Assembly (NCBI RefSeq): GCF_014279975.1
Contig: NZ_CP047936.1
Span: 2,356,001 to 2,420,000 of the forward strand
Length of the DNA stretch: 64,000 bases
Source: Synechococcus sp. BIOS-U3-1
GTDB lineage: Bacteria; Cyanobacteriota; Cyanobacteriia; PCC-6307; Cyanobiaceae
Reading direction: 5' to 3'
Below the pieces are notes generated by a model. That model was not told the DNA's origin, did no database searches, and saw nothing but the letters and a program-made list of their open reading frames with translations. The position numbers were made by a program, and so were the translations under genes. The stretch's first letter is position 1, and each line of letters starts with the position of its first letter. This document shows positions 4,193-51,044 of this stretch, piece by piece.

Positions 4193-5041
4193 TCAGTTTG
4201 GAACGGCGGCGGACCACCACACCAGCAGCAACACTCCAAAGAGAAGCCGGTAGATCACGAAAATCCAGGTGCTGTGACGTTGCAGGTACTTCAACAACCA
4301 GTCGATGGCCAGCCAGGAGACCACTGCTGCAGAACCAATTCCGATCAGCAGAGGGAGTGCACCGCCAGCGCTGGGCTCACTAAATGCATCCTTGATTTGC
4401 ACCAAACCCGCCAGGGTGATGGCTGGAATTCCCAACAAAAATGAAAACCGGGCCGCATCCGGGCGCTTCCAGCTGTCGAAAAGTGAAGCGGTGAGAGTGC
4501 TTCCCGATCGGGAGACCCCAGGGATTAACGCGAGCACCTGCGCGAGACCCACCACCAGGCCATCTCGTCCTTGCACCTGGTCGAGTCGCTTGAGGCGCGG
4601 GCCAAGCTTCTCTGCCAAAGCCAGCAACAACGCCATCACAATCGACACGACGGCGATCACCGGTTCGCTGCGCAACGGAGACGTTTCATAACCGGGCCAG
4701 AACAATTTGATGCCAAGGCCCACCACCAAGATCGGCACGGTGCCAATGGCCATCGCAATCCCCAAGCGGGCTTCCGGCTCGCGCCACTGCCCTCTGCGCA
4801 GGGCAGCGCATATTCCGTTCCACACCCCAACGAGGTCGTCGCGGAAGTAACCGATGACGGCAACGATGCTGCCCAGCTGAATCACAGCTGTGGCAGAGAC
4901 ACCGGGGTCCTGCCAACCGGCAAGAGCGGGCACCACCTTCAAATGGGCCGTGCTGCTAATCGGCAGAAACTCAGTCAGGCCCTGGACAACACCCAGAACA
5001 ATATTTCTCCAGATGGCCTCGAGCAGTCCGGGTTCTGACAC
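4193..5041 (-). CDS. uppP: Undecaprenyl-diphosphatase
   Basis: A polytopic membrane phosphatase that recycles undecaprenyl pyrophosphate to the monophosphate carrier used for peptidoglycan and surface polysaccharides. Near the N-terminus is the signature VVQGLTEFLPISSTAHL (catalytic E and the SS motif), and later the second active-site loop PGVSRSGSTLTASL. About eight hydrophobic segments follow, as in the family. The frame is open upstream to 5125, but homology-like sequence begins at LLEAIWRN, so the GTG at 5041 (282 residues, normal family length) is preferred. It heads a leftward gene cluster and is divergent from the DUF3120 gene. Confidence 0.92.
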   Translation of the reverse strand: MSEPGLLEAIWRNIVLGVVQGLTEFLPISSTAHLKVVPALAGWQDPGVSATAVIQLGSIVAVIGYFRDDLVGVWNGICAALRRGQWREPEARLGIAMAIGTVPILVVGLGIKLFWPGYETSPLRSEPVIAVVSIVMALLLALAEKLGPRLKRLDQVQGRDGLVVGLAQVLALIPGVSRSGSTLTASLFDSWKRPDAARFSFLLGIPAITLAGLVQIKDAFSEPSAGGALPLLIGIGSAAVVSWLAIDWLLKYLQRHSTWIFVIYRLLFGVLLLVWWSAAVPN

Positions 5042-5142
5042 CTCTGAAGTCCTGAACACACGTTTAGGGACGCTATCGCCAGACCCAACGTCGAATGACA
5101 TCAGACGCCTCACAAAAACGCTCAATGAGGCGCAAATCTTCT

Positions 5143-5916
5143 ATGGTCACAGTCCTTTCTTCACATAAAGGCGGGAGCGGATCGTTGTTCAGTGGGCTGA
5201 TACGCAACCAAGCCCTTGCTGAGCCGGTCCAGCCGATCGCTCTTGGGATGGCTGGGCTGCCCTTCTGGGCATCCACGCTGGTAGTGCTGCCTGTATTCGT
5301 GCAGGCGCCCTGGGTGCGCGAACAACCCTTCACCTCCTGTCTGTTCGGTCTTGTGCTCCTTTCAGTGGGCGTGATCACCAATTCGATTGCGCCCAAACAA
5401 TGGAAAGATTTCGGAGCACTACTGGTTGGTTTTAGTGGCAGCTGGTTGGCTGGCAGCCTTTTCTGGGGGTGGCTTGCCATACATCCTTTGCTGCACCTGC
5501 CTGTTGAAGCTTTTGCTTTGCCTTTGGCGATCACCGGACTGGGAACTCGATGGCGCCTTGGATGCGCCTTTTATTTGGCTTCTCTACTGGGAACCGCGTT
5601 CACCGATTTGGCCATGGCCCTCACAGGCGTTATGGCCCTCTGGCCTGCGGTCATCGGAGCTTCTGCGTCAGACGCAACTGGTCTGCTTCAGGACGCTGCA
5701 GCCTACGTACTCAGACCAACTTCTCTGCTGACGGTCACCGCGACAGGAGTGATCATTGTGCAGTTCGTTCAGTACTGCAGATCTCGCAGCAGCCTGTCTG
5801 CAGCGAATGACAAAGCTTGGGCTGTGGCGGCGGCCGTACTGCTCACAACCCTTCTGATTGACGGATTGTTTCTGTTGCTGTCTCTGCTCGCACCTGAACT
5901 CAGCGGCCTGGTCTGA
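5143..5916 (+). CDS. DUF3120-type cyanobacterial membrane protein
   Basis: A 257-residue integral membrane protein with about six hydrophobic segments. The conserved stretch LPVFVQAPWVREQPF near the first membrane segment and the later GLGTRWRLGCAFYLASLLGTAFTDL match my memory of the cyanobacterial DUF3120 family, which has no assigned function. The frame opens with an ATG at 5095, with further ATGs at 5125 and 5143; the last is chosen because it leaves about 100 nt for a divergent promoter region with uppP. It is followed by psbU after 117 nt. Function unknown. Confidence 0.65.
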   Translation: MVTVLSSHKGGSGSLFSGLIRNQALAEPVQPIALGMAGLPFWASTLVVLPVFVQAPWVREQPFTSCLFGLVLLSVGVITNSIAPKQWKDFGALLVGFSGSWLAGSLFWGWLAIHPLLHLPVEAFALPLAITGLGTRWRLGCAFYLASLLGTAFTDLAMALTGVMALWPAVIGASASDATGLLQDAAAYVLRPTSLLTVTATGVIIVQFVQYCRSRSSLSAANDKAWAVAAAVLLTTLLIDGLFLLLSLLAPELSGLV

Positions 5917-18292: not shown

Positions 18293-19001
18293 GGCAAAAC
18301 CGTTGTTGACACTGCTGATCACCATGCTGCTGCAGATTGTGTCGGTTCAGTCCGCCGATGCGGCCAGTGATCGTGGAATCAGCTTCCTTGAGCAGCGATT
18401 CCAAAACTGGCCGCAATGGTCCTTGCCGGCACCTCTGCCTCGACCCCGCGCCAAACAAGACCTGATCTATCCCGACTGGTTTTTAGGGACATGGCAGGTG
18501 ACCAGTGAGGCACTCGATGATTCAGGCCAACCCATTCCCAACGATCGCCCCCTTGTGCATGAGGTCCGTTTCCTGCGCAACCGTCGCAGCGAACTCATTG
18601 GTGACCGCCCCTTCAACGCTGCTGCGGTTGGGAAAGCACTGCTTGGCGATCAATTGCTGTCGGTCGAACAGGATCCCAACCAGGTGAACCGTCAACTGGC
18701 GAGGTTTCGAGACGATGTGTTGCTCGAAACCACCGTGATTGGCCGGCGAGAGACGAGCCCGCAAAAGGGCTCTGATTTCTTCAGTGATGAACTCGTCTTG
18801 CAGATCCTGCACGGACCGGGGGCGCCGCGGCTGAGCAGGATTGAAACCCTCACGCACTACATGCAGTGTGGAGAAGACATCTGCGCCGACCAGCGTCAGG
18901 TGAGCCATGCAGGGCCTGGCCTGGAAACCGACCAGACACTGGCGGGACGCAGCAGCCGTTTCAAGCTCAGGCTCAGACCACTGGAGCTGGATCAAGGTTG
19001 A
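18291..19001 (+). CDS. Exported cyanobacterial protein (DUF6816-like), unknown
   Basis: A 236-residue protein with an N-terminal signal peptide (hydrophobic LLTLLITMLLQIVSV, then SADAAS), followed by DLIYPDWFLGTWQVTSEAL, a phrase typical of a lipocalin-like or lumenal protein family shared by cyanobacteria and plastids. The mature domain looks beta-rich and includes two cysteines in MQCGEDICADQ. Likely located in the thylakoid lumen or periplasm. Its family assignment to DUF6816 is from memory and uncertain. The C-terminus overlaps the convergent GST gene by 29 nt. Confidence 0.6.
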   Translation: MAKPLLTLLITMLLQIVSVQSADAASDRGISFLEQRFQNWPQWSLPAPLPRPRAKQDLIYPDWFLGTWQVTSEALDDSGQPIPNDRPLVHEVRFLRNRRSELIGDRPFNAAAVGKALLGDQLLSVEQDPNQVNRQLARFRDDVLLETTVIGRRETSPQKGSDFFSDELVLQILHGPGAPRLSRIETLTHYMQCGEDICADQRQVSHAGPGLETDQTLAGRSSRFKLRLRPLELDQG

Positions 19002-19707
19002 TCAGCCGACTCTCCAGTTGATCGCGCCAGCGAAACAGGTCCTGAAGACGGGGATGATCACTGATCCCTGGAACACCTCGACCGGCGAGTGATTCTCCCG
19101 AGGAAGCAGGAAAACGAAGCAGCGACAACTGAGCAGATACAGCAAGATCCGCAAGGCTGACGCCATCTCCAACCAGAAAGCCATTGAGATCCAGGCCCTC
19201 CGCGACGGCACACAGGCTGCTGAGCATTGACGCTCTCTGCTCCTGACCGAGCAATTCACCAAGACTGCTGAGCCAACCACCTGGCAGACCCGACATCACC
19301 TGACGCACCGGTGAGGGAACATCATCCGGGAGCAGCACGTCTCGCAGCTGAGCATCATCGGCAGCCGCCTGAACAAGCGCAGCCCTGACCGCAGCGGCAA
19401 GGGTGGTATCGGCCCAATCTTCAATCAGCTGCATCTGAGCGCGCTGGCGGGGATCAGAGGGAATCAACGCCGGCTCGGGCCGGAGTTCTTCCAGATAGCG
19501 GCAGATGGCACTGGAATCAGACACCACAACCTCCCCATCCACAAGAACGGGGACTTGCCGTTGGCCGGAAAGCCGGAAGAGTGAAATCTGACCAATGCCA
19601 GGGGTGACTTCAACCTCGCGATAACTGAGTCCCTTGGCTTGCAACGCCATCCGTACCTTGAGGCAGAAGGCCGAGTGACGAAACTGATGAAGCTCCAGCA
19701 CGATCAA
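18973..19707 (-). CDS. Glutathione S-transferase family protein
   Basis: A 244-residue protein. The N-terminal thioredoxin-fold domain reads LELHQFRHSAFCLKVRMALQ, with RQVPVLVDGEVVVSDSSAIC giving the cis-proline and the SDSSAI glutathione-binding motif; the C-terminal helical domain begins around residue 95 with MQLIEDWADTTL. The family conjugates or transfers glutathione, or acts in redox repair. The substrate cannot be told. It begins at 19707, just left of the AT-rich segment, and may mark the edge of the conserved backbone. Confidence 0.85.
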   Translation of the reverse strand: MIVLELHQFRHSAFCLKVRMALQAKGLSYREVEVTPGIGQISLFRLSGQRQVPVLVDGEVVVSDSSAICRYLEELRPEPALIPSDPRQRAQMQLIEDWADTTLAAAVRAALVQAAADDAQLRDVLLPDDVPSPVRQVMSGLPGGWLSSLGELLGQEQRASMLSSLCAVAEGLDLNGFLVGDGVSLADLAVSAQLSLLRFPASSGESLAGRGVPGISDHPRLQDLFRWRDQLESRLINLDPAPVV

Positions 19708-19755
19708 ATTGACTCAAATTCCAATGTAGGCACCAACTGATTTTTTCGCCGAAGG

Positions 19756-19767
19756 TGTCTGTAGACA
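19756..19767. promoter_or_regulatory. Short inverted repeat upstream of the orphan gene
   Basis: TGTCT and AGACA face each other with a 2-nt spacer in the AT-rich 134-nt leader of the orphan gene at 19842. It has the form of a dimeric operator half-site pair, but it is short enough to occur by chance. Confidence 0.2.
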
Positions 19768-19841
19768 AAAGAAAAGAAAATCACAAATTACCTGACTCCA
19801 ACGCCGGCAATTGCTAACAAAAAAGTAGCCTGAATTTTTCA

Positions 19842-20825
19842 ATGACGGAAACAGTAAATCAATACAACTTGAACAAACATCTTCTCCTAGACTGGGACAT
19901 ACCCGATCCATCCGCAGACCTCATTCTTTGGCATGAGGGCTACAAGGCAGCAACTAATTCCACAAGCAAACTCTTTAACGATCAAGAGTGGGAAAAATAC
20001 ACGGATTCAATTATCAATTTCGCCAATCACAACGACTTCAAAGCGATTGGAATTTCCATCGTCTTCGCTGACGACAACTCAACACTTCCCGTCAACGGAG
20101 TGGACTGGATCAACAAATTCATCGCAAAAGCCGAACCAAACTTCAAAATTGGAATTGACATTGGCTACCAAAGCGGCAAAAAACCTATTAATGACACCAA
20201 AAAGTTTCAAGCAATGGCAGAAACTTTGTCTGAGATTAAATCCAAAGAACCTTTGATTATTGGCTTAGACGGAGAACAGAAGGTAGTTGCGGACAACGCC
20301 TTAGAGTTCACAAATAATTTTAAAACGGCTCTCACCGATGCAGGTGTCAAGATCGACGAATTTGTCATTCTCTCGCAGATGAAACCTAAAGCAAACTGGG
20401 AGGGCAACCTGCTTAATGGTTTTGAATTTTACTCTCAGAAGAAAAAAGGCACTCAGAAAAAGAGCTTGAATCATCTCTATAACCAGTACGCGAATAAGCC
20501 CATAAAAGCATTCCAAGAATTCAACGACCTTGTCGAGTCAGGCCAAACAATCGCCAAAGCCTCCGACCTTCCAGGCCCTGGCACAGCACCTGTGTTTGCA
20601 ATCTCTCGGTCTGATGACAATTGCCTGGGCGGAAAGCTGGCATCTGAGTCGAAGTTAAACAAATGCGGCATTACTGATATTTTTGGCCAATGGAGATGGG
20701 ATAAATTCGAAGATTTTCTTGGTCTTTACACTGCCCACTATCCAACTACGGACAAGATCTTCATTTTCCAGGGAGAACAATTACCCTGCGACTGGCTTAC
20801 AGAGGCGCCCAAATGTGCCTGCTAA
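19842..20825 (+). CDS. AT-rich orphan gene, unknown (possible TIM-barrel enzyme)
   Basis: A 327-residue protein that I do not recognise. No signal peptide or membrane segment. Hydrophobic beta-strand-like stretches alternate with helices: HLLLDWDIP, AIGISIVFADD, FKIGIDIGY, LIIGLDGEQ, DEFVILSQM, FGQWRW, KIFIFQGEQ. This pattern, with acidic residues at the strand ends, suggests a TIM-barrel such as a glycoside hydrolase or phosphodiesterase; this is inference. All five cysteines fall in the last ~70 residues (DNC, KCG, PCDW, KCAC). Base and codon use is clearly more AT-rich than its neighbours, it has no evident Shine-Dalgarno, and a gene-poor segment follows. These are signs of recent transfer. 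Confidence 0.65.
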   Translation: MTETVNQYNLNKHLLLDWDIPDPSADLILWHEGYKAATNSTSKLFNDQEWEKYTDSIINFANHNDFKAIGISIVFADDNSTLPVNGVDWINKFIAKAEPNFKIGIDIGYQSGKKPINDTKKFQAMAETLSEIKSKEPLIIGLDGEQKVVADNALEFTNNFKTALTDAGVKIDEFVILSQMKPKANWEGNLLNGFEFYSQKKKGTQKKSLNHLYNQYANKPIKAFQEFNDLVESGQTIAKASDLPGPGTAPVFAISRSDDNCLGGKLASESKLNKCGITDIFGQWRWDKFEDFLGLYTAHYPTTDKIFIFQGEQLPCDWLTEAPKCAC

Positions 20826-21553
20826 ACAATTGCACGAGCCCACTCCGCGCAACTCAATTCTGAGCAAATTAAGCAAGGAAGCAATCAACCCATTGAATTA
20901 CTTTAGCCTCTTGAATATCCCACAATCCAGAAACTCTAATACTCAAACTGCAACATGACCTAAAAACCAAGGCCGATGATTGATTTGCCTTACACCGGCA
21001 CTTATTCAAAATCTATCGGAATTGTTCGACCACTTAAAAGCGAAACATTCCTTGGGGTGGATTGCGAGCTTCGAGGCGGTCCAGTTTCGATGCATTACTG
21101 AGCCGAGACATCAGCCAATTGAGCTAAAGAACCACCATCTGCACCTGATAGTGACCAGGCGCCCCATCACATGAGCGATCGAGCGGTCACAGGCCAGAAG
21201 ACTATGGGTGGAACAGAGCTGCTGATCCGTGGGATGGTCCCCACTGAGCTCTTGTGACTGGCTGAGCTGAGCAGCTGATTGAACAGCGGCTCTGGCACGT
21301 GGCCTTAAAGATGGTTCTTGGTCAAAGAGCGATGATCACCCAGGTTCGAGCAATAACTGCAGTGGATCGTGCCAGCCACAACTTGGGCCAAGAAAGCCGT
21401 CAATCTGATGCTTTTGGCCTAGACAGCCTGGTTAGTCTCAATATCATTTTCGAAAGAGAACTTGCTGTTCGCCGTTGAGTGCGCTCTCTCCTGCAGCATG
21501 CTCAGCCATTACGGGGGCATCGGATTCCCCAAGACACCCTGCGATAACTGGCC
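20826..21553. other. 728-nt segment without a credible gene
   Basis: The first ~150 nt continue the AT-rich composition of the orphan gene; the rest returns to the normal base composition. Short open frames here (for example 20980-21174) have no recognisable features. On the minus strand, 21115-21127 reads TTAGCTCAATTGG, identical to the common tRNA D-arm sequence, yet no anticodon arm or T-arm can be folded around it. The last ~250 nt probably hold the promoter region for the DUF751-rbfA genes. Confidence 0.5.
21104..21140 (-). pseudogene. Possible tRNA fragment (D-arm only)
   Basis: On the minus strand a stretch matching positions 8-20 of many bacterial tRNAs (TTAGCTCAATTGG, 21127-21115) is preceded by a seven-base segment that could be an acceptor 5' strand. 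Downstream there is no five-pair anticodon stem and no GGTTCGAATCC-like T-arm. If real, it is a broken tRNA, of the kind left at an integration site next to a transferred gene; chance similarity cannot be excluded. Confidence 0.2.
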
Positions 21554-21760
21554 ATGAAAGAGTTTTTCATCAACGTGACGCGCTACCCGCGCTATTTAAT
21601 CGCTTTCAGCCTGGGTGTGATCAATTCGGTTGCAGAGCCGCTCGCACGTCGTCGTAGCAACCCAGTGACCGCGGTCGCACTGATTGGGGCTCTGATCAGT
21701 GGCTTCCTCAGTCTGAGCTTTGTCCTGCGTGCCATGGTGTCCTCAGCACCGCAGAGCTGA
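21554..21760 (+). CDS. DUF751 (Ycf33-like) membrane protein
   Basis: A 68-residue protein starting [20 protein letters not shown], with two hydrophobic helices (about 13-28 and 42-62) separated by the basic loop [12 protein letters not shown]. This matches the small cyanobacterial and plastid DUF751/Ycf33 family, whose role is unknown, though a thylakoid location is likely. It ends one nucleotide before the rbfA start and is probably co-transcribed with it. Confidence 0.8.
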
Positions 21761-21761
21761 C

Positions 21762-22178
21762 ATGGCCCCGGGACGTCGGGTTGAACGCGTTGCAGCCCTC
21801 ATCAGGCGAGAGATCAGTGAACTGCTGATCAATGGGATTCGCGATGAACGCGTGCATCAGGGCATGGTGAGCATCACGCATGTGGAGGTCAGCGGCGACC
21901 TCCAGCACTGCAAGATTTTTGTCAGCGTCCTGGCGGACGACAAAGCTCGCACAGAAGTCATGGACGGTCTGCAAGCCGCCAGCGGCTACCTCAAGGGGGA
22001 ACTGGGTCGTCGTCTGCAGATGAGACGATCCCCTGAAGTGATATTCCAGCTCGACCGCGGTCTCGAGAAGGGAACCACGGTGTTGCACCTTCTCGGAGAA
22101 CTTGAGCGAGAGCGAGAGGTGAAGGGCAGCATCCCTCCTGGCAGCGACGACACTGAGTCTCCAGACTCCAATGACTGA
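21762..22178 (+). CDS. rbfA: Ribosome-binding factor A
   Basis: A 138-residue KH-fold protein needed for 16S rRNA 5' end maturation and cold-tolerant 30S assembly. Conserved phrases: [18 protein letters not shown] at the start, [21 protein letters not shown] in the middle, and [21 protein letters not shown] at 21762 gives the usual N-terminus; an in-frame extension to 21720 would overlap the upstream gene. The end overlaps the GH3 gene by 8 nt. Confidence 0.93.
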
Positions 22179-41073: not shown

Positions 41074-42195
41074 GTGTCCTTCACAATTGATTCAGACAAT
41101 AACGAGACTCAAGGCTTATCGATCATTCTGCCGACATTTAATGAGGCTGGGTCCATCGAGACAATGGTGTCCTCACTTCTCGAACTCACCAATCAATATC
41201 AAATTGAAATTTTAATTGTTGACGATGATTCCCAAGATGGAACGGCAGATCTTGTTCGAAAACTGGCGAGGCAGGATTCACGAATCAAGCTAATTCAACG
41301 CGTGGGGCGTTCTGGCCTGGCAAGCGCCATTAAGGAAGGGCTCATTGCTGCCATTTATCCGTTTGCCATTGCCATGGACAGTGACGGACAACATGAACCG
41401 TCCTCCGTCATGGCAGCCGTTCGACAGCTGCATGCAGGCGCTGAACTTGTGATTGGCAGCCGCTTTCTTGTTAACTCTGAAATCCGAGGCCTCAGCAACC
41501 GACGCACAAACGGTTCCACGGTGGCGAACCGGTTAGCACGGTGGAGCCTCCATCAAAACTACAACCAACTCACTGACTACATGAGTGGCTTTATGGCCTT
41601 GGAGCTCAACAGCTGCCTGCACCTCGTACGGAAGGTAGATGTGAACGGATTCAAATTTCTCTATGAGCTTTTAGCAATCAGCAAAGGAAAACTAAAAACC
41701 ACCGAGATCCCACTTCGCTTTCAGCCGCGACTTCACGGTGATTCAAAATTGGACTATGCCATTCTCTGGGATTTCATAGTTTCCCTTCTCCACGCCGCCT
41801 CATTCCACATCCTCCCAAGAAGAGCAATCAGCTTTGGACTCGTAGGAACTTCTGGAGTTGCGGTGCAACTGATCATGACTTCTTTGCTCATGACCTTTGG
41901 GCTTAGCTTTCAGCAAGCAATACCTCTGGCGGTAGTCACTGCTGCTAGCTCTAACTATCTAGTCAACAACATTTTAACATTTAGGGACCGGCGCCAGCAT
42001 GGACTAAAGCTTTTACAAGGTCTTCTGAAATTCTTACTCGTCGCATCTCTTCCTTCGCTGGCAAATATTGGCTTAGCAACGGGATTTTATACATTGATCC
42101 AAGCCAATGCTGTTTTTGCGCAGCTCGCAGGAATCATCGTTGTTTACATCTGGAACTACGCCGCATCATCTCGATTTGTATGGAATACCCCTTAA
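41074..42195 (+). CDS. GT2-GtrA fusion (polyprenyl-phosphate sugar synthase)
   Basis: A 373-residue fusion. Residues ~1-235 are a GT2 domain of the dolichyl-phosphate mannose synthase type: LSIILPTFNEAGSIETMV, ILIVDDDSQDGTADLV, AIAMDSDGQHEP (the DxD-like metal site) and ELVIGSRF. Residues ~245-370 are a four-helix GtrA domain (RAISFGLVGTSGVAVQLI; SNYLVNNILTFRDRR) that is thought to flip lipid-linked sugar. It would supply donor sugar to the flanking GT39 enzymes. Start is GTG at 41074. Composition is more AT-rich than average. Confidence 0.9.
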   Translation: MSFTIDSDNNETQGLSIILPTFNEAGSIETMVSSLLELTNQYQIEILIVDDDSQDGTADLVRKLARQDSRIKLIQRVGRSGLASAIKEGLIAAIYPFAIAMDSDGQHEPSSVMAAVRQLHAGAELVIGSRFLVNSEIRGLSNRRTNGSTVANRLARWSLHQNYNQLTDYMSGFMALELNSCLHLVRKVDVNGFKFLYELLAISKGKLKTTEIPLRFQPRLHGDSKLDYAILWDFIVSLLHAASFHILPRRAISFGLVGTSGVAVQLIMTSLLMTFGLSFQQAIPLAVVTAASSNYLVNNILTFRDRRQHGLKLLQGLLKFLLVASLPSLANIGLATGFYTLIQANAVFAQLAGIIVVYIWNYAASSRFVWNTP

Positions 42196-42207: not shown

Positions 42208-43755
42208 ATGCCATCAAAAGCTCTTATTAGCCAAAAACAAACTTCACAGTCTGCAGGAATTTGGATTCCAGTTTTACTGGGCATCTTTCTTCGTTCCATT
42301 CAATTGTGGATGCCGATAGTTGGAATTCATAGCTGGCGGCAAGCAGACACAGCCGCGATGGCAAGAAACTTTTATTTATCAAATACTCCGATTTGGCTGC
42401 CACAGATTGACTGGGGAGGAGCATCAGCAGGTTTTGTTGAATCAGAATTCCCGCTGTTCCCATTCCTAACCAGCCAGCTTTATCTACTCTTCGGTCTTCA
42501 CGAGTGGCTCGGGCGAAGTTTGTCCGTGATTTTCAGCGGGCTCACCATATGGCTTGTCATTCGCCTTGGCAGGCGTTGGTTCAATCCAATCGCTGGCTGG
42601 TGGGGAGGGATCGCAATGGCTGTCGCCCCACTCGGGGTGTACTACGGACGTAGCTTTCAAGCAGAGGCACTTCTTCTGTTCTGTGCCGCTGCTGCACTCG
42701 AAAGCCATAGCTTGTGGCGCAGTCAAAAATCAAAATGGGCGCTGATTTTAAGCTGGGTGTTTTTCACAACAGCTGCTTTGCTCAAAGTCATACCGTTGCT
42801 TTGGCTTGGGCTTCCATTGCTGCTGGTAGAGGTCACACAGTCACGACAAACCCAGTCTGAATCGCGACGAAAACTGGCTCAAAGGTGTCTGGACCTACTG
42901 CGAAATCCAGGATTCTGGATTTATTCAGGAACATCAGTCGCAGTCGTTGCTGGTTGGTACTTACACGCCTACCAACTTGGAGCAAGCAGTGGCTTGAGCT
43001 TCGGCTTCTGGGGTGCTGGCACCGACCGCGGTGCCCTTAGCCTTGTTTTGGATGGAAACAGCTGGCTGAACCTCACACTGCGAGTCGCACTGCGACTGCT
43101 TGTTGTGGTTTGGATTCCTTTGCTGATCCTGGGAATCCACCGCAGTTGGAAAACGGGGGGAGGACAAATTGCCCTTGGCGGCCTGGCGGGAATGCTGTTG
43201 TGCACGATCGCCACCATGCGAGCAAGCACCATTCATGAGTATTACCAGCTGCCGGTTCTGTTGTTCACTTCACCCCTAATCGGACTGGGATGGCAAATTT
43301 TTCAACAGCATGGTGCACGCTGGCAATCACGAGCGCTGCTCTGCCTTGGTCTTGTCGTGAGCCTGACCGTACTGTCGGTGGATTATTGGGCTGTCGAGCA
43401 ACGCCAGAGCAGAGCCTGGATGCCCCTCGCCTTGACCATACGCCGTGATCTACCTGCCGATTCACGATTAGTCAGCGTGACAAGCACCGATCCAACCTTG
43501 CTGAATCTGGCTCGGAGCCAGGGATGGCTGATTACCAGTGAACAATTGAGCTCCGAACGCATCAAGCAATTACGAGATGCAGGGGCCACCCATCTGGCCG
43601 GCAGCTTCATCTGGGACACCACCTATCAACCCATGCCGGAAAACCAACAAGACATGTTGCGCGAGCTGGCCGCATCCAGCCCCGGAGCCTGGGTGGACAA
43701 GCGCAGCCAGACCTATCTGATTCCCATCGATGAACGGCCTTCAAACCCGGACTAG
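42208..43755 (+). CDS. GT39-family glycosyltransferase (PMT_2-like)
   Basis: A 515-residue membrane protein with about 12 helices. The early loop IVGIHSWRQADTAAMARNFY has the conserved W-R-Q-A-D-T phrase of bacterial glycosyltransferases of this class, followed by ESEFPLFPFLTSQLYLLFG. Its C-terminal ~90 residues are periplasmic, with RRDLPADSRLVSVTSTDPTLL. Predicted to transfer a sugar from a polyprenyl phosphate, perhaps the one made by the preceding GT2-GtrA protein; substrate unknown. The downstream DUF2079 gene begins 26 nt before its stop. Confidence 0.85.
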   Translation: MPSKALISQKQTSQSAGIWIPVLLGIFLRSIQLWMPIVGIHSWRQADTAAMARNFYLSNTPIWLPQIDWGGASAGFVESEFPLFPFLTSQLYLLFGLHEWLGRSLSVIFSGLTIWLVIRLGRRWFNPIAGWWGGIAMAVAPLGVYYGRSFQAEALLLFCAAAALESHSLWRSQKSKWALILSWVFFTTAALLKVIPLLWLGLPLLLVEVTQSRQTQSESRRKLAQRCLDLLRNPGFWIYSGTSVAVVAGWYLHAYQLGASSGLSFGFWGAGTDRGALSLVLDGNSWLNLTLRVALRLLVVVWIPLLILGIHRSWKTGGGQIALGGLAGMLLCTIATMRASTIHEYYQLPVLLFTSPLIGLGWQIFQQHGARWQSRALLCLGLVVSLTVLSVDYWAVEQRQSRAWMPLALTIRRDLPADSRLVSVTSTDPTLLNLARSQGWLITSEQLSSERIKQLRDAGATHLAGSFIWDTTYQPMPENQQDMLRELAASSPGAWVDKRSQTYLIPIDERPSNPD

Positions 43756-45181
43756 AAGCAATCGATCTCAGGTGGGGAGCACTCCACCGCTGCTAATCGT
43801 ACTAAGCGGGGGGATTGGGCTGATCTTCTGGTGCACCTCGGCCATCCGCCACGGTTTACTCCAAAGCAATGCCTATGACCTTGGTCTGTTCGACCAGTGG
43901 GCCTGGCTGATCGGGACTGGAGCAAACCCGATCTCTTCCATGGAACAGGTGCATGTGCTCGCTGATCACGGCGCCTGGATGCTGTACGCCGCTGGTTGGG
44001 CCTACCAACTGCTACCCAGCGTGCAGTGGCTCCTTGCAAGTCAGGCACTGGCCCTGAGCTGCACAGCAATTCCAATCTGGTGGTTGTCTCGTCAAGCTGA
44101 ATTGAGTTGGCGGCAGTGCTGGTTGATCTGTGGCCTGTGGTGGCTGCAACCAGTAGTTTTCAACGTCGTACTTTTCGACTTTCATCCAGAAACCTGGGCG
44201 ATGCCTGCTTTTGCAATGGCGCTTTGGGCCGAAAGAGCTCAACGCCCGCGCCTTTGGTTCCTACTGCTGGTGCTGATGCTTGGCTGCAGGGATGGCCTGG
44301 TGTTGATCACAGCAGGGATGGCCCTCAATCTGGCCTTGCGACGCCGGTGGCGATGGAGTCTTGTGGCTGGGAGTCTCAGCCTGGGATGGCTGTTGATGCT
44401 TAGCCGCTGGCTCTATCCGCTGTTACGCAACGGAGAGGGGCCAAAAGCCGCTGCTCAAATGTTCGGGCATTTGAGCGCAGACCCACTGTTGATTTTGAAG
44501 AGCCTCGATTGGGCAGGAGGGATCGAATACCTCGTCTTGCTTTGCTTGCCATGCATCTGGCTATGGCGACGGGCATCCCTATCCACACTGCTGATCGGAC
44601 TCCCTTTGGTCCTGGTCAACTTGCTCTCGGCTTCAAGCACCTATCGCACGCTGGTGCATCACTACAGCCTGCCTCTAGCCGTACTGGCTGTGGTGGGATC
44701 CATTGATGGCCTGTGCCATCAACACCGCCTTCGTTCAGTCTTCCCCTGGACCCTTTGCTGGGCTGTGGCCTGCTGGCTTGCCTTGGCGAAACCCTGGTTT
44801 TTCACAGGACCCTATCTGCAACGACTGCCCCAACTCACCGATGTCAGAGAAGCCATCGCAATGGTGAAGCCGAATGACGCCGTGATCACAACCAGTTATC
44901 TAGTACCGCAATTAAGTCATAGGACTGCCGTGGCTTTCCCCAAAAAAGCATTCAACAAAGATCTCACCACCATGGGCTGGACTTTGCTTCTGCTCAATCC
45001 AAACGATCCTGGTTGGGGTTCAACCAGCAAGTTGCAAAAACAACTTCTCAGCCAAGCGAGAGACAAGAGTTGGGTTTGCCACCAGTGGGCTTCTGGTTGG
45101 TCTCTGTGCCGAGATCCTGATGCTGAAGAACGACGACTCCCAGCTGGCAATACACCAACCGATAGGAGCCCGATTCAATGA
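43730..45181 (+). CDS. DUF2079 membrane protein (copy 1)
   Basis: A 483-residue polytopic protein. The signature of the family is near the N-terminus: LLQSNAYDLGLFDQWAWLIG, then VHVLADHGAWMLYAAGWAYQ, and FNVVLFDFHPETWAMPAFA. DUF2079 proteins resemble GT-C glycosyltransferases in layout and are often found in surface-glycan clusters. The C-terminal domain is periplasmic (VVITTSYLVPQLSHRTAVAF). It overlaps the previous gene by 26 nt. The last 134 nt overlap the convergent second DUF2079 gene; the extra tail after SLCRDPD may be non-essential. Confidence 0.82.
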   Translation: MNGLQTRTRSNRSQVGSTPPLLIVLSGGIGLIFWCTSAIRHGLLQSNAYDLGLFDQWAWLIGTGANPISSMEQVHVLADHGAWMLYAAGWAYQLLPSVQWLLASQALALSCTAIPIWWLSRQAELSWRQCWLICGLWWLQPVVFNVVLFDFHPETWAMPAFAMALWAERAQRPRLWFLLLVLMLGCRDGLVLITAGMALNLALRRRWRWSLVAGSLSLGWLLMLSRWLYPLLRNGEGPKAAAQMFGHLSADPLLILKSLDWAGGIEYLVLLCLPCIWLWRRASLSTLLIGLPLVLVNLLSASSTYRTLVHHYSLPLAVLAVVGSIDGLCHQHRLRSVFPWTLCWAVACWLALAKPWFFTGPYLQRLPQLTDVREAIAMVKPNDAVITTSYLVPQLSHRTAVAFPKKAFNKDLTTMGWTLLLLNPNDPGWGSTSKLQKQLLSQARDKSWVCHQWASGWSLCRDPDAEERRLPAGNTPTDRSPIQ

Positions 45182-46679
45182 GCTCCGACAATTTTGTTCG
45201 GATACTGCGCTGCCGCTCCCGTTCCAGGTTGAACACTGGTGCCAACTGTTTGTAGTAACCAGGGAATGCCACCACCCAGTCCACAAAATGCGTCTGACCC
45301 GCCCTATCGCGATATTGAACGTGATTCGGAAAGCGAATCAACTTTTCACGCTCAGCTAACAAGGGCAAGAGAGGTGTATCAGCCGAAACGCTGACATTGC
45401 TTGGAACCAAAGCAACCGCTGCCAGAGCTGCATGACGACGCTCGAGCATCTGGCTCGGAGGAACATGAATCCATGGTGAGAAACTATCAGGGATGAAAGC
45501 AGAGAGGCTGCGGTGGGGATTGGCGAGAATCGTGAGCACTAAACCGAGCGAAATTGCAGCAGTCCAAGAACGTCGTATCCATAACCGCGACCAACCCATT
45601 GGGTGCTGCTGCCACCAGAGCACGGCACCCAAATAAAGGCCAGGAACCAAAGCGAGCACGTAGCGCAATGTGACCGAAAGTGCTGATCGTCCCTGAGAAA
45701 GCAACGCAATCAACAGGGGAGCAGCCATCAGCAGCAGGGCATCCACCGAGAAGATTGGAACGAAAAGGAGTGGCAGGCTCAAAGCCAGTACAAAGCCAAG
45801 CGTCTCCCCAGGCGGCGAAATGAGTGCTTCTAACAACGCAAGGGGGCGACGCAACATCGCCAAAAGAACAGAAACCGTTCCTCCCGATGGATCATCCACC
45901 AAATGACCAAACTTTTCCTGAAGGAAGCGGTCTGAAAGGGAGGAATCCACCATCGGCTGAATCCAACCGGTGACCAGTAGAACCCATGCAAATGAAATCA
46001 GCATCAAACCAGCCCCGATCCGGCGAGCACCGGGCTGGCGGATGAGGGCCCAAAGCCCAAGAGAAAACAACAGCAAGCCACTGTCCTCACGGACAAGAAG
46101 GAGAAGAGCCCCATAGAGAGTCACCCGCCAAACACAACTCTCCAGCAGCGCTCCCACTACAAGAAAACCCAGTAGAGGCAACCAAATCAAGTCATGAAAA
46201 TTCTCTAGAGCTGGGCCTAGCACCGCACCACTGAGAAAGTAAGCAGCTGTGATCCGCTCGGCGAGTACACGAGGTAAACGTGCATCGGCCAACCGCCACA
46301 GCACCAGCCCAGCCGCGGTGAGCGCAGTGACCTGGATGAGAGGAAGCGCCCATTTGCCGATTAGAGCAACTAGTGGAGATCCAAAGAGGGTGAGCACATT
46401 GGCGTGCTGGCCTAAATGCAGATAATCAATCCTTGGCAGTTCCTCTCCAAGTGCCACTGCTGCCGAAAGCACCGATGAAAGACTGCTTTCGAAGGGCCTG
46501 CCTTGAGCTGTTGACCAAAGCTCCTGTAAAAACAAAGCCTGGTCATAAGAAGCACTTAGAGTTTCGAGCCTCCAAATCTGAATGGCCAGACAAACCAGAA
46601 AAAACCCTCCCGCCATGACCATCACTGAGCCTGGCAAGCGCCACCGATCTGAAGCACTACCTGCCGTTGGTTCGCTCAT
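45048..46679 (-). CDS. DUF2079 membrane protein (copy 2)
   Basis: A 543-residue polytopic protein with the DUF2079 signature SASYDQALFLQELWSTAQGR, DYLHLGQHANVLTLFGSPLV and LENFHDLIWLPLLGFLVV. The C-terminal part ends YRLVYCQLGVVVLQHQD, a natural family end, followed by a ~22-residue tail. That tail is coded inside the convergent DUF2079 copy 1 (overlap 45048-45181). It belongs to a different subgroup than copies 1 and 3 and is oriented leftward. Likely a role in envelope glycan transfer. Confidence 0.82.
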   Translation of the reverse strand: MSEPTAGSASDRWRLPGSVMVMAGGFFLVCLAIQIWRLETLSASYDQALFLQELWSTAQGRPFESSLSSVLSAAVALGEELPRIDYLHLGQHANVLTLFGSPLVALIGKWALPLIQVTALTAAGLVLWRLADARLPRVLAERITAAYFLSGAVLGPALENFHDLIWLPLLGFLVVGALLESCVWRVTLYGALLLLVREDSGLLLFSLGLWALIRQPGARRIGAGLMLISFAWVLLVTGWIQPMVDSSLSDRFLQEKFGHLVDDPSGGTVSVLLAMLRRPLALLEALISPPGETLGFVLALSLPLLFVPIFSVDALLLMAAPLLIALLSQGRSALSVTLRYVLALVPGLYLGAVLWWQQHPMGWSRLWIRRSWTAAISLGLVLTILANPHRSLSAFIPDSFSPWIHVPPSQMLERRHAALAAVALVPSNVSVSADTPLLPLLAEREKLIRFPNHVQYRDRAGQTHFVDWVVAFPGYYKQLAPVFNLERERQRSIRTKLSELIESGSYRLVYCQLGVVVLQHQDLGTETNQKPTGGKPNSCLSLG

Positions 46680-47106
46680 GCAGCAAGAGATTGATCTTGA
46701 AGCACGCTAAGAAAGACCAGGATCACACTTCAACAGATTGCTGCTCTGAGCCGCTCAGTAGAACATGAGTTCTCAGCAACAACAGCAAAAGGGATGCATA
46801 CAGGACGAGCTCGCCCCATTCCTGATCACGGTTGTAGATCGTTTCTGAGAACGAGCCTGTCGCAACGCAAAAAGTAATACCGGCCGCAAACAGAAATAAA
46901 GGCCAGGTGTTTTACACCGCAGGCAATAATGACATCACAAGCTCGCGACGATCGAGGGAGGATTGTCGCAATGCAATTCAGCAGATTAGTGGCGCCAAAA
47001 CCACCACCGCCTGAATGACCACCGCAACCGATTCACACAAATATCTTTCCACAAAGATCGAACGACGATTCAGGACCAAAGCGACTATTCAAGGAAAGTG
47101 CAAGAA
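46680..47106. other. 427-nt gap with gene debris
   Basis: Between the start of DUF2079 copy 2 (46679, minus strand) and the end of copy 3. The first part contains the relic described at 46723-46911; further right, on the minus strand, 46981-47040 also reads as a hydrophobic segment (ESVAVVIQAVVVLAPLIC) in a different frame before a stop. The remaining bases show nothing else. It looks like the remains of a membrane-protein gene. Confidence 0.5.
46723..46911 (-). pseudogene. C-terminal relic of a membrane protein gene
   Basis: On the minus strand, 62 codons are open between a TAA at 46912-46914 and the TGA at 46723. The reading includes WPLFLFAAGITFCVATGSF, then SETIYNRDQEWGELVLYASL, a poly-leucine helix, and ends SGSEQQSVEV. 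There is no start codon in the segment. Two hydrophobic helices joined by a polar loop look like the end of an O-antigen ligase or polymerase-type protein. The upstream coding is interrupted by stops and frame changes. It is therefore read as a broken gene, probably once part of the same glycan cluster. Confidence 0.45.
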
Positions 47107-48540
47107 CTAAACCTTACGGCAGACACGAATATAATCATTAGGCTGACTACAATTCATCCCTAACAGCTCCGCCTTCCCAAGAATTTGGTTCATCTGCAAG
47201 CCTATCTCAGTCCTTCTTACTTTCTTGAGCTTGCCACTGACATTAATGAGAGCATTTTCACTTGGCAAAATTACTACATCGAAAGGCCAGTTGCTGTCAT
47301 AAGTATCTTTTTCAATCTGAGATATGCGTTTACGCCCTGCAAGATGAACCGCATAGCTGGCAGTGGTTAGAACACTTTCACCAGAGCCAATTCCTGCCAC
47401 AACTGACTGAAACGCGCGCGCTTCTGGCAACCTTGGGAAATATCTAGTTTGATAATATACTGTTCGAGAATAGCCAAGGAAAGCAGCCAAAGAAAGAATC
47501 AATGTAATAATCAATAGATTCTTCCGAACCTGAGTAGCTTTAACTGAAATCGATGGCAATGAATCAATGCACCCTGCAATCAAGAAAGCCAAAATAGCAA
47601 CAGAATAATGATGATTCAACTCACGATGAATTCCTGAGCCTGAAATGATATTTGTGAAATAAACAGGAGTAGCCCCAAGCAAACACGCTAAGGCCGGCTT
47701 ACGCAAAAGAGCAAGAAAAGGGAGCGAAAGACCTAAGCTATATAACAAAATATCCGAAGGAGATGCAACGCTAAAAACAATCCACGGCCGCGACAGCAGA
47801 GTCGTCAACATTTCGATCTTAGTATCACCCAGATACTCCAAACGAATGGCGACATGATCGCCACCAGCCGACGAAAAATGAGTAGCCAAAAACCACCAAA
47901 TCAGTGAAATCAAAAATGTAATCAGGCCTCTTCTGTATTTGCCTCTAGCAAAGCAGTAAAAGCACAAACCGATGCCAAACAGTGCTTGTGCATTCTTAGC
48001 AAACAGTGTAACTATGAGGCAAAAATAATAACGAAACCTTCGATTCTTAGTGGCTTCAAAAATAGCCACAACCATCAGGGGAACAGTTAAAACATCAGGA
48101 TGGAAGTCTCCTCTATTAACAAGGAAGCTATACGGAGAAAGTACAATCGCGCAGACCAAAGCCCAAATCAATGTTGCGTTGACTCGCCGACTAACAGCCA
48201 GACAAGAGGCAACAGCCGGAAGCGATCCCAAGGCAATTGATTGCAATCCGATCAGGGTATAGGTAGAAGGGAACAGCTTATAAATGAAACCAATTGGAAG
48301 AAGAAGAAGAGAGAAATGATCTTGCAATGGTGCAATATTTCGCAAGCTACTGATCGTCCATATCTGACCCTCACCGATCAGCCAACTAAATTGCTCAAAA
48401 AGTCCAATATCCCAAACCTGAGTACCAAATAAATAATGTTGAAAAGCAGCCGAAGTGAAGAGAACACTTCCATACGCGATTGATACGATCAAAGCCGCGC
48501 GCTGGATTGAAATACCTTTCTCCTTACTAAGAGAGCTCAT
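47107..48540 (-). CDS. DUF2079 membrane protein (copy 3), AT-rich
   Basis: A 477-residue polytopic protein with the DUF2079 signature FGTQVWDIGLFEQFSWLIG, NIAPLQDHFSLLLLPIGFIY and LVNRGDFHPDVLTVPLM. Family members are thought to be GT-C-like transferases; activity is unproven. ATG at 48540 is preceded by a strong GAGGTGG ribosome site. Base composition is much more AT-rich than copies 1 and 2 and the surrounding backbone, suggesting a separate, more recent arrival. The C-terminus has a cysteine pair (GMNCSQPNDYIRVCRKV). Confidence 0.82.
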   Translation of the reverse strand: MSSLSKEKGISIQRAALIVSIAYGSVLFTSAAFQHYLFGTQVWDIGLFEQFSWLIGEGQIWTISSLRNIAPLQDHFSLLLLPIGFIYKLFPSTYTLIGLQSIALGSLPAVASCLAVSRRVNATLIWALVCAIVLSPYSFLVNRGDFHPDVLTVPLMVVAIFEATKNRRFRYYFCLIVTLFAKNAQALFGIGLCFYCFARGKYRRGLITFLISLIWWFLATHFSSAGGDHVAIRLEYLGDTKIEMLTTLLSRPWIVFSVASPSDILLYSLGLSLPFLALLRKPALACLLGATPVYFTNIISGSGIHRELNHHYSVAILAFLIAGCIDSLPSISVKATQVRKNLLIITLILSLAAFLGYSRTVYYQTRYFPRLPEARAFQSVVAGIGSGESVLTTASYAVHLAGRKRISQIEKDTYDSNWPFDVVILPSENALINVSGKLKKVRRTEIGLQMNQILGKAELLGMNCSQPNDYIRVCRKV

Positions 48541-48840: not shown

Positions 48841-49896
48841 TTAGAGCGCATTACCACGGGGCAGAACCTCTTCAGGGAAGACGAAGTTTTCGTGCGGCTG
48901 GTCAGCCGGTGCCATCCAGGCACGCAGACCTTCATTCAGAAGGATGTTCTTGGTGTAGAAGGTCTCAAATTCGGGATCTTCTGCAGCGCGGATTTCCTGT
49001 GACACGAAGTCATAGGCGCGCAGGTTGAGGGCCAAACCGATGATGCCGATGGAGCTGGTCCACAGGCCCATCACAGGCACGAACAACATGAAGAAGTGCA
49101 GCCAGCGCTTGTTGGAGAAAGCAATTCCGAAGATCTGACTCCAGAAGCGGTTGGCGGTGACCATCGAATAGGTCTCTTCTTCCTGTGTGGGCTCGAACGC
49201 CTTGAAGGTGTTGGCCTGCTCACCATCCTCAAACAAGGTGTTTTCCACGGTGGCGCCGTGAATGGCGCAAAGCAGTGCACCGCCGAGAATGCCGGCGACG
49301 CCCATCATGTGGAAGGGGTTCAGGGTCCAGTTGTGGAAGCCCTGCAAGAAGAGGAGGAAGCGGAAGATCGCTGCCACACCAAAGGAGGGCGCGAAGAACC
49401 AGCTGCTCTGGCCGAGGGGGTACATCAGGAAGACACTGACGAACACCGCAATCGGGCCTGAGAAGGCGATGGCGTTGTAAGGACGGATGCCGACCAGACG
49501 AGCAATTTCGAACTGACGCAGCATGAAGCCGATCAGGGCGAAAGCACCGTGCAGGGCAACGAAGGCCCAGAGGCCGCCGAGCTGACACCAGCGAACAAAG
49601 TCACCCTGGGCTTCAGGGCCCCAGAGCAACAGAAGGCTGTGACCCATCGCATCAGCGGGGGTGGACACAGCAGCAGTCAGGAAGTTGCAACCTTCCAGGT
49701 ACGACGACGCGATGCCGTGGGTGTACCAAGAGGTGACAAAGGTGGTGCCTGTAAGCCAGCCACCGATGGCCAAGTAGGCCGTTGGAAAGAGAAGAATGCC
49801 GGACCAGCCGACAAAAACGAAGCGGTCGCGCTTGAGCCAGTCATCGAGGACGTCGAACCATCCCCGCTGTGGCGCGCGTCCTACAGCGATCGTCAT
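48841..49896 (-). CDS. psbD: Photosystem II D2 protein
   Basis: A 351-residue reaction-centre protein of photosystem II (PsbD), which binds chlorophyll, pheophytin, the quinone QA and the non-heme iron. Seen are the D2 start [20 protein letters not shown], the [17 protein letters not shown] helix, the histidine-bearing [17 protein letters not shown] and the C-terminus RGNAL. D1 was excluded because the N-terminus, the APQRGWFD segment and the C-terminus are D2-type. The usual cyanobacterial psbD overlaps psbC; here a terminator directly follows, so this is a stand-alone copy. An AGCTTCAT-type palindrome is near its start codon. Confidence 0.97.
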
Positions 49897-51021: not shown

Positions 51022-51044
51022 GGGGTAGGTTCTGCACGGCGCAT

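Follow-up and report, generated by a model that had tools for sequence, protein, structure and literature searches.

Compositionally deviant accessory genes are common in marine Synechococcus genomes, as stated in the parts of two earlier studies considered here (PMC2441476, PMC7522525), and the same part of the second gives a share of 1.5–31.2% unique genes per Synechococcus genome (PMC7522525). The share of orphan genes in marine Synechococcus genomes varies and is often large, while their roles are mostly unknown. Here we describe an orphan open reading frame (ORF) in a junction between two conserved genes, found in the 64-kb stretch of DNA that was analysed, hereafter called the window (positions 2356001–2420000 of a single-contig 2.71-Mb genome). 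In window coordinates, the features of the locus are the following.

18973–19707, minus strand: flanking glutathione S-transferase (GST) gene; the insert begins right upstream of it
19708–20999, no strand: probable inserted block of about 1.29 kb with 42.8% GC, common to the window and genome G312 (Synechococcus sp. AG-679-A04); right edge approximate
19842–20825, plus strand: orphan ORF of 327 amino acids, ATG at 19842 and stop at 20823–20825, predicted (beta/alpha) barrel
20268–20276, plus strand: codons of D143-G144-E145, which ends modelled strand 4 and contains a candidate catalytic pair judging by the alignment and structural model 1
21008–21384, minus strand: decayed 2OG-Fe(II) oxygenase gene with internal deletions, frameshifts and stops (tblastn pieces in several frames, best E 8e-18)
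21554–21760, plus strand: DUF751 (PF05421) gene, the other border of the variable junction
21762–22178, plus strand: a gene that we take to be rbfA-like, the anchor of the site in the genus

The ORF is almost certainly a real protein gene. The longest open stretch of the 1290-bp insert is 335 codons, against 230 in 1000 first-order Markov shuffles. Its GC content is 43.6%, compared with a mean of 56.8% (SD 4.2) for 981-bp segments of the 64-kb stretch. A GC content as low was reached by 32 of 1261 overlapping segments, all starting at 19.55–20.1 kb or 46.95–48 kb, and the tetranucleotide distance of the ORF was exceeded by 21 of 631 segments, some of which overlap the ORF itself. By codon position, the GC content is 47/34/50%, compared with 66–74/42–46/57–66% in five neighbouring genes. 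Both profiles thus bear out the initial annotation, which had called the gene AT-rich and out of line with its flanks: the window has two strongly deviant spots, of which this gene is one and the other (46.95–48 kb) is the stronger. No operon partner is evident, as the GST gene is divergent and the next intact downstream gene lies beyond the oxygenase wreck. The terminator search gave 0 hits (2.5 in shuffles) and the promoter search 2 (1.9 in shuffles).

Elsewhere in the window, three genes for DUF2079 membrane proteins lie close together within 43730–48540 (43730–45181, plus strand; 45048–46679 and 47107–48540, minus strand). The last of these lies where the window is richest in AT, and 300 bp separate it from a Photo_RC (D1/D2-type) gene (48841–49896). 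A gene for a glycosyltransferase 2 with a GtrA membrane domain (41074–42195) lies within a further AT-rich patch (46–49% GC) and adjoins PMT_2 and DUF2079 genes.

An orthologue of the same length and 80% identity is encoded in G312. The two genes differ at 142 nucleotides, distributed 46/21/75 over the codon positions, with no indel in 981 bp, and the NG86 estimates are 0.104 for dN and 0.432 for dS (dN/dS about 0.24). This comparison of two coding sequences shows that the ORF has been maintained as a protein, evidently under purifying selection. Its dS is similar to that of the neighbouring GST (0.477) and DUF6816 (0.418) genes on one flank, so the gene was in place before the two species split; on the other flank, the rbfA-like gene (0.169) and GH3 (0.289) both have lower values. 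The dN of the ORF is 2–4 times that of these four neighbours (0.024–0.051). The gene is constrained, yet faster-evolving than its neighbours. No mention of ‘AG-679-A04’ was found in the literature searched.

All five cysteines of the product (residues 261, 275, 316, 325, and 327) fall within the last 67 residues, in agreement with their annotated C-terminal location, and they occupy identical places in the orthologue. Strongly hydrophobic stretches are absent from the product (highest Kyte-Doolittle mean over a 19-mer, 0.86), and its hydropathy points to neither a secretion signal nor a membrane segment. An internal substrate is therefore likelier than an extracellular glycan.

To model the structure, AlphaFold was run with the single protein (model 1) and with a two-row alignment that included the orthologue (model 2); the two models are not independent evidence. 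Model 1 has a mean pLDDT of 48.5, with means of 51–86 for the ten-residue blocks of residues 41–180. Its strands lie at 27–31, 68–75, 102–109, 138–143, and 171–177, with helices between them, and, after a poorly predicted part, at 251–255 and 305–309. In model 2 the mean pLDDT went down to 41.5 and the strand order was unchanged. Out of the eight strand-helix units of a barrel, seven alternating strands are thus modelled and an eighth is assumed near 193–198, pLDDT being low from about residue 178. When compared with the PDB by Foldseek, E never fell below 1e-3, and the best 50 rows were mostly of what we take, from their titles, to be TIM barrels of many activities: glycosidases, YihT aldolase, PEP-mutase-type lyases, tagatose epimerase, dihydropteroate synthase, and others appear at similar E-values. 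Because the list mixes aldolases, lyases, epimerases, and glycosidases, the barrel says little about the reaction.

VIA re-ranks only the first 1000 Foldseek matches, and the product may also belong to a family outside its lists; moreover, the PDB is rich in glycosidase barrels. For model 1, its best 50 matches had Z-scores of 10.3 to 8.4 over residues 8–198, with many GH5 and GH6 enzymes; by title, 48 were glycoside hydrolases, one was CutC, and one was uninformative. For model 2, the best 50 (Z 8.9 to 7.9, span 20–326) were mostly GH5 with some GH1, and by title comprised 45 glycosidase-type proteins, four SghA entries (presumably a GH1 enzyme), and one enolase-type protein. The best scores of 10.3 and 8.9 lie above the 7–8 that the tool quotes as the typical best score for models without a clear match, and are therefore suggestive rather than proof. 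Among viral structures, a single match had an E under 0.001 (rmsd 20.5, TM 0.16), and no coherent family emerged. Although both models are of low confidence, their matches are mostly barrels and neither gave a barrel-free fold; the TIM-barrel-like strand pattern noted in the initial annotation has gained support, and we consider that the product probably adopts a barrel fold.

Acidic residues at the strand ends had been taken as a sign of an enzyme, perhaps a glycosidase. They do occur within three positions after five of the seven modelled strand ends, but residue shuffles reach this in 5.5% of 20000 trials (P 0.055), and the pattern on its own proves little. The alignment is more specific: residues 139–142 all differ between the orthologues, while D143-G144-E145 is kept. 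GH18 and GH25 enzymes have such a D-x-E at strand 4, and GH84 also has an acidic pair there. The GH18 signature on this strand is DxxDxDxE, whereas GH5, of clan GH-A, has an N-E-P that closes strand 4 and supplies the acid/base Glu. The GH18 motif occurs in neither orthologue; N-E-P is absent from the window protein, and the only one in the orthologue (135–137) lies before strand 4, not at its end. A strand-4 acid combined with the later D258/D259 would instead mimic clan GH-A. A glycosidase is plausible, at the level of a guess, from the fold matches alone; no family signature was found, and we regard an action of the product on glycosides as possible though somewhat doubtful.

Alternatively, the product could have the (beta/alpha)8 barrel fold without being a glycosidase, either as an enzyme of aldolase, lyase, epimerase, or phosphodiesterase type or as a non-catalytic protein. 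The mixture of activities at similar E-values among the best 50 Foldseek rows and the missing glycosidase signatures speak for such a protein. However, the VIA lists of both models consist mostly of glycoside hydrolases, numerous as such barrels are in the PDB, and the D-x-E after strand 4 was conserved while the strand itself changed. We consider this alternative credible but short of probable.

Relatives were sought in genome samples of increasing breadth; those of the family, order, class, and phylum were evenly drawn and overlapping. Among 31 genomes of the genus (E 0.01), the ORF was found in two, the window's own and that of G312, which has a completeness of 73%. When only the 24 genomes with completeness of 90% or more and contamination of 5% or less are counted, the window's own is the sole carrier. 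The order (1/399) and class (1/388) samples (E 0.001) each returned the window's own genome. The family sample (400 genomes, E up to 1) gave 24 matching genomes, of which only the window's and G312 are credible and 22 are weak (E 0.02–0.91), and the phylum sample (386 genomes, E up to 0.1) gave 12, with only the window's own credible and 11 weak (E 0.007–0.1). Of the 33 weak matches, the 18 that were read on the correct strand were rejected as chance; they fell in what we presume to be Ffh-, PurL-, antiporter-, DnaX-, and RibBA-like proteins, in other, unrelated-looking frames, or across stops. A peptide-pattern scan of 84,980 species genomes found AG-679-A04 alone.

Sequence collections of other kinds gave the same picture. 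Up to E 10, no Pfam family matched the product, and the single matches in NCBIfam (a HAD hydrolase model, E 0.078), PHROGs (phrog_25476, E 0.3), and PADLOC (PDC-M15B, E 0.035) are at chance level. Among the PDB sequences, the single protein had no match and a two-row profile had three (best E 0.26, dihydroneopterin aldolase), none a credible relative. With no credible family in Pfam, NCBIfam, PHROGs, or the PDB sequences, the annotation of the gene as an unrecognised orphan agrees with our results. The advised check for viral relatives likewise gave none: tblastn of 50,697 phage records produced three matches (best E 4), and four pattern scans of IMG/VR, a method that detects close relatives only, gave no relative; among plasmids the best tblastn match had an E of 9. 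As the pattern scans detect close relatives only, ‘orphan’ means orphan in these collections. Within them, the results support the view that the ORF is an orphan, known so far from two marine Synechococcus species; neither a donor nor a credible homologue beyond the one orthologue was identified in the genus-to-phylum samples, species genomes, phages, plasmids, or IMG/VR.

The junction between the starts of the GST and DUF751 genes was measured between tblastn match starts, to within a few bp, in the 29 of 31 genus genomes with the rbfA-like anchor. It is 54–60 bp long in 18 genomes and longer in 11, namely all seven members of the clade to which the window belongs (291 to 1847 bp), G169 (563 bp), G156 (561 bp), G265 (379 bp), and G239 (1469 bp). 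The junction of G239 holds a different AT-rich insert (38.9% GC; L084, about 4768–5529, minus strand), with a 253-aa minus-strand ORF that matches Reprolysin_3 (E 2.3e-5; 25.4 bits against a cut-off of 22.4). This junction, the single one compared, has thus received unlike inserts in separate branches of the tree. Such behaviour, together with the AT-richness and orphan status of the ORF, would suit a phage- or mobile-element-derived accessory gene, for example a structural, lysis, or anti-host gene, left after its carrier decayed. Against this origin stand the phage, IMG/VR, and PHROGs results above and the site itself: no tRNA lies at the junction, no integrase was seen between the GST and DUF751 genes, and the sole repeat pair across the junction is of 15 nt with 87% identity (19613, 21536) and may be chance. 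We therefore judge it unlikely. By eye, an RNA gene or tRNA remnant had been suspected in 20826–21553, but this found no support from Rfam and ARAGORN, whose single hit in the window is the tRNA at 51044.

The stretch after the ORF (20826–21553, about 0.7 kb) had been described as gene-free. It holds no intact gene, but the oxygenase pseudogene lies inside it. In a tree of four flanking-gene proteins (685 columns), the window belongs to a clade of seven genomes with support 100/100. Four of these (G289, G301, G271, and G307) have an open minus-strand oxygenase ORF of 250–269 aa in the junction. The G289 product, the one compared with Pfam, is a 2OG-Fe(II) oxygenase (PF13759, E 1.7e-19), and those of the other three are 82–90% identical to it. 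The remaining three genomes, the window's, G312, and G277, carry oxygenase remnants broken differently in each: G312 retains about 106 of the 269 residues, split over two frames and with one stop, and G277, whose junction is 291 bp, retains only the last 15. Beside the oxygenase gene of G289 lies a small 83-aa ORF (L067, 5181–5432, minus strand) with, by eye, a secretion-signal-like start and no Pfam match up to E 0.01; similar ORFs occur in G271 and G301.

Both carriers, the window's genome and G312, have a stretch of 1.29 kb, with the ORF, at the start of the junction, between the GST gene and the oxygenase remnant. The five other clade genomes have, in place of this block, about 85–120 bp between GST and the oxygenase end, alignable among themselves and without trace of the block, and orthologues at the site in all relatives were thus not found. 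This absence at the orthologous site, together with the deviant composition, supports a horizontally acquired insert, as far as sequence comparison can tell, and we consider it very probable that the block was inserted in this lineage. The annotated recent acquisition therefore stands as regards acquisition, given that 18 of the 29 genomes have a junction of 54–60 bp and that the block is missing from five clade-mates, while ‘recent’ is only relative, since the insert predates the split of the two species (dS 0.43). The simplest reading is one insertion in the common ancestor of the two carriers, with the oxygenase decaying after or alongside it through different deletions in each. Window and G312 are not resolved as sisters in the poorly resolved interior of the clade, so as far as the tree goes a transfer between them could also have occurred. 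The same poor resolution leaves room for a gene ancestral to all seven genomes and lost in five, and losses are known here (the oxygenase of G277 is nearly gone); however, the short alignable stretch at the exact place in five clade-mates would need a single old loss or several clean ones, and we find such a history improbable. De novo birth from non-coding DNA in the lineage would account for a gene restricted to two species with no homologue beyond its orthologue, but 327 residues of predicted strand-helix alternation, a GC content below that of the local DNA, and five clade-mates without homologous non-coding DNA at the site make it highly improbable.

We thus favour a lineage-restricted accessory gene on an acquired block, encoding a soluble barrel enzyme, most likely a glycosidic-type hydrolase; taken as a whole, this reading is in our estimate evenly poised. 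The block would have arrived by horizontal transfer from an unsampled, lower-GC source, and nothing marks its carrier. The product would be a soluble (beta/alpha)8-barrel enzyme that acts where its strands have their carboxy ends. Its reaction would most likely be a hydrolysis of glycosidic type that uses D143/E145 of strand 4 and perhaps D258/D259, which follow a later strand, and the C-terminal cysteines may pair or bind a metal. A bolder version seems unlikely to us: an undescribed glycoside-hydrolase-like barrel family, with a minimal strand-4 D-x-E pair and a cysteine-bearing tail, delivered into marine Synechococcus via a small junction that repeatedly takes single cargo genes (an oxygenase, the barrel protein, and a metalloprotease-like gene in another species) without a tRNA or visible integrase. 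Should the protein be an active enzyme, it would represent a new barrel family in which few residues need testing; if not, the locus merely adds another accessory gene to those known. The close relatives also allow several states of one small insertion site to be read: a short junction, the oxygenase present, the orphan present, and the oxygenase decaying.

Among known enzymes, GH5-type clan A barrels are frequent top matches of both models (Z 7.9–9.4 over 139–218 aligned residues), but sequence identity is 5–14%, the ORF product lacks the strand-4 N-E-P, and Pfam finds nothing even at E 10. The GH6 cellobiohydrolases (Cel6A) gave the top single score with model 1 (Z 10.3, 174 residues, rmsd 3.8); in contrast, their identity is 10%, only model residues 8–189 are aligned, and they are not among the best 50 listed with model 2. 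The likeness to GH18, GH25, and GH84 lies in the conserved D-x-E that ends modelled strand 4, and GH84 O-GlcNAcases and viral GH18 proteins are among the weak Foldseek matches (E 3.8e-3 or worse). At the level of the genome, the islands of marine Synechococcus have a size of at least six genes in the part of PMC2441476 considered here, whereas this locus has one gene between two conserved genes. It further differs from the islands and islets, as covered in the same parts of PMC2441476 and PMC7522525, in that an older insert is visibly decaying beside the ORF.
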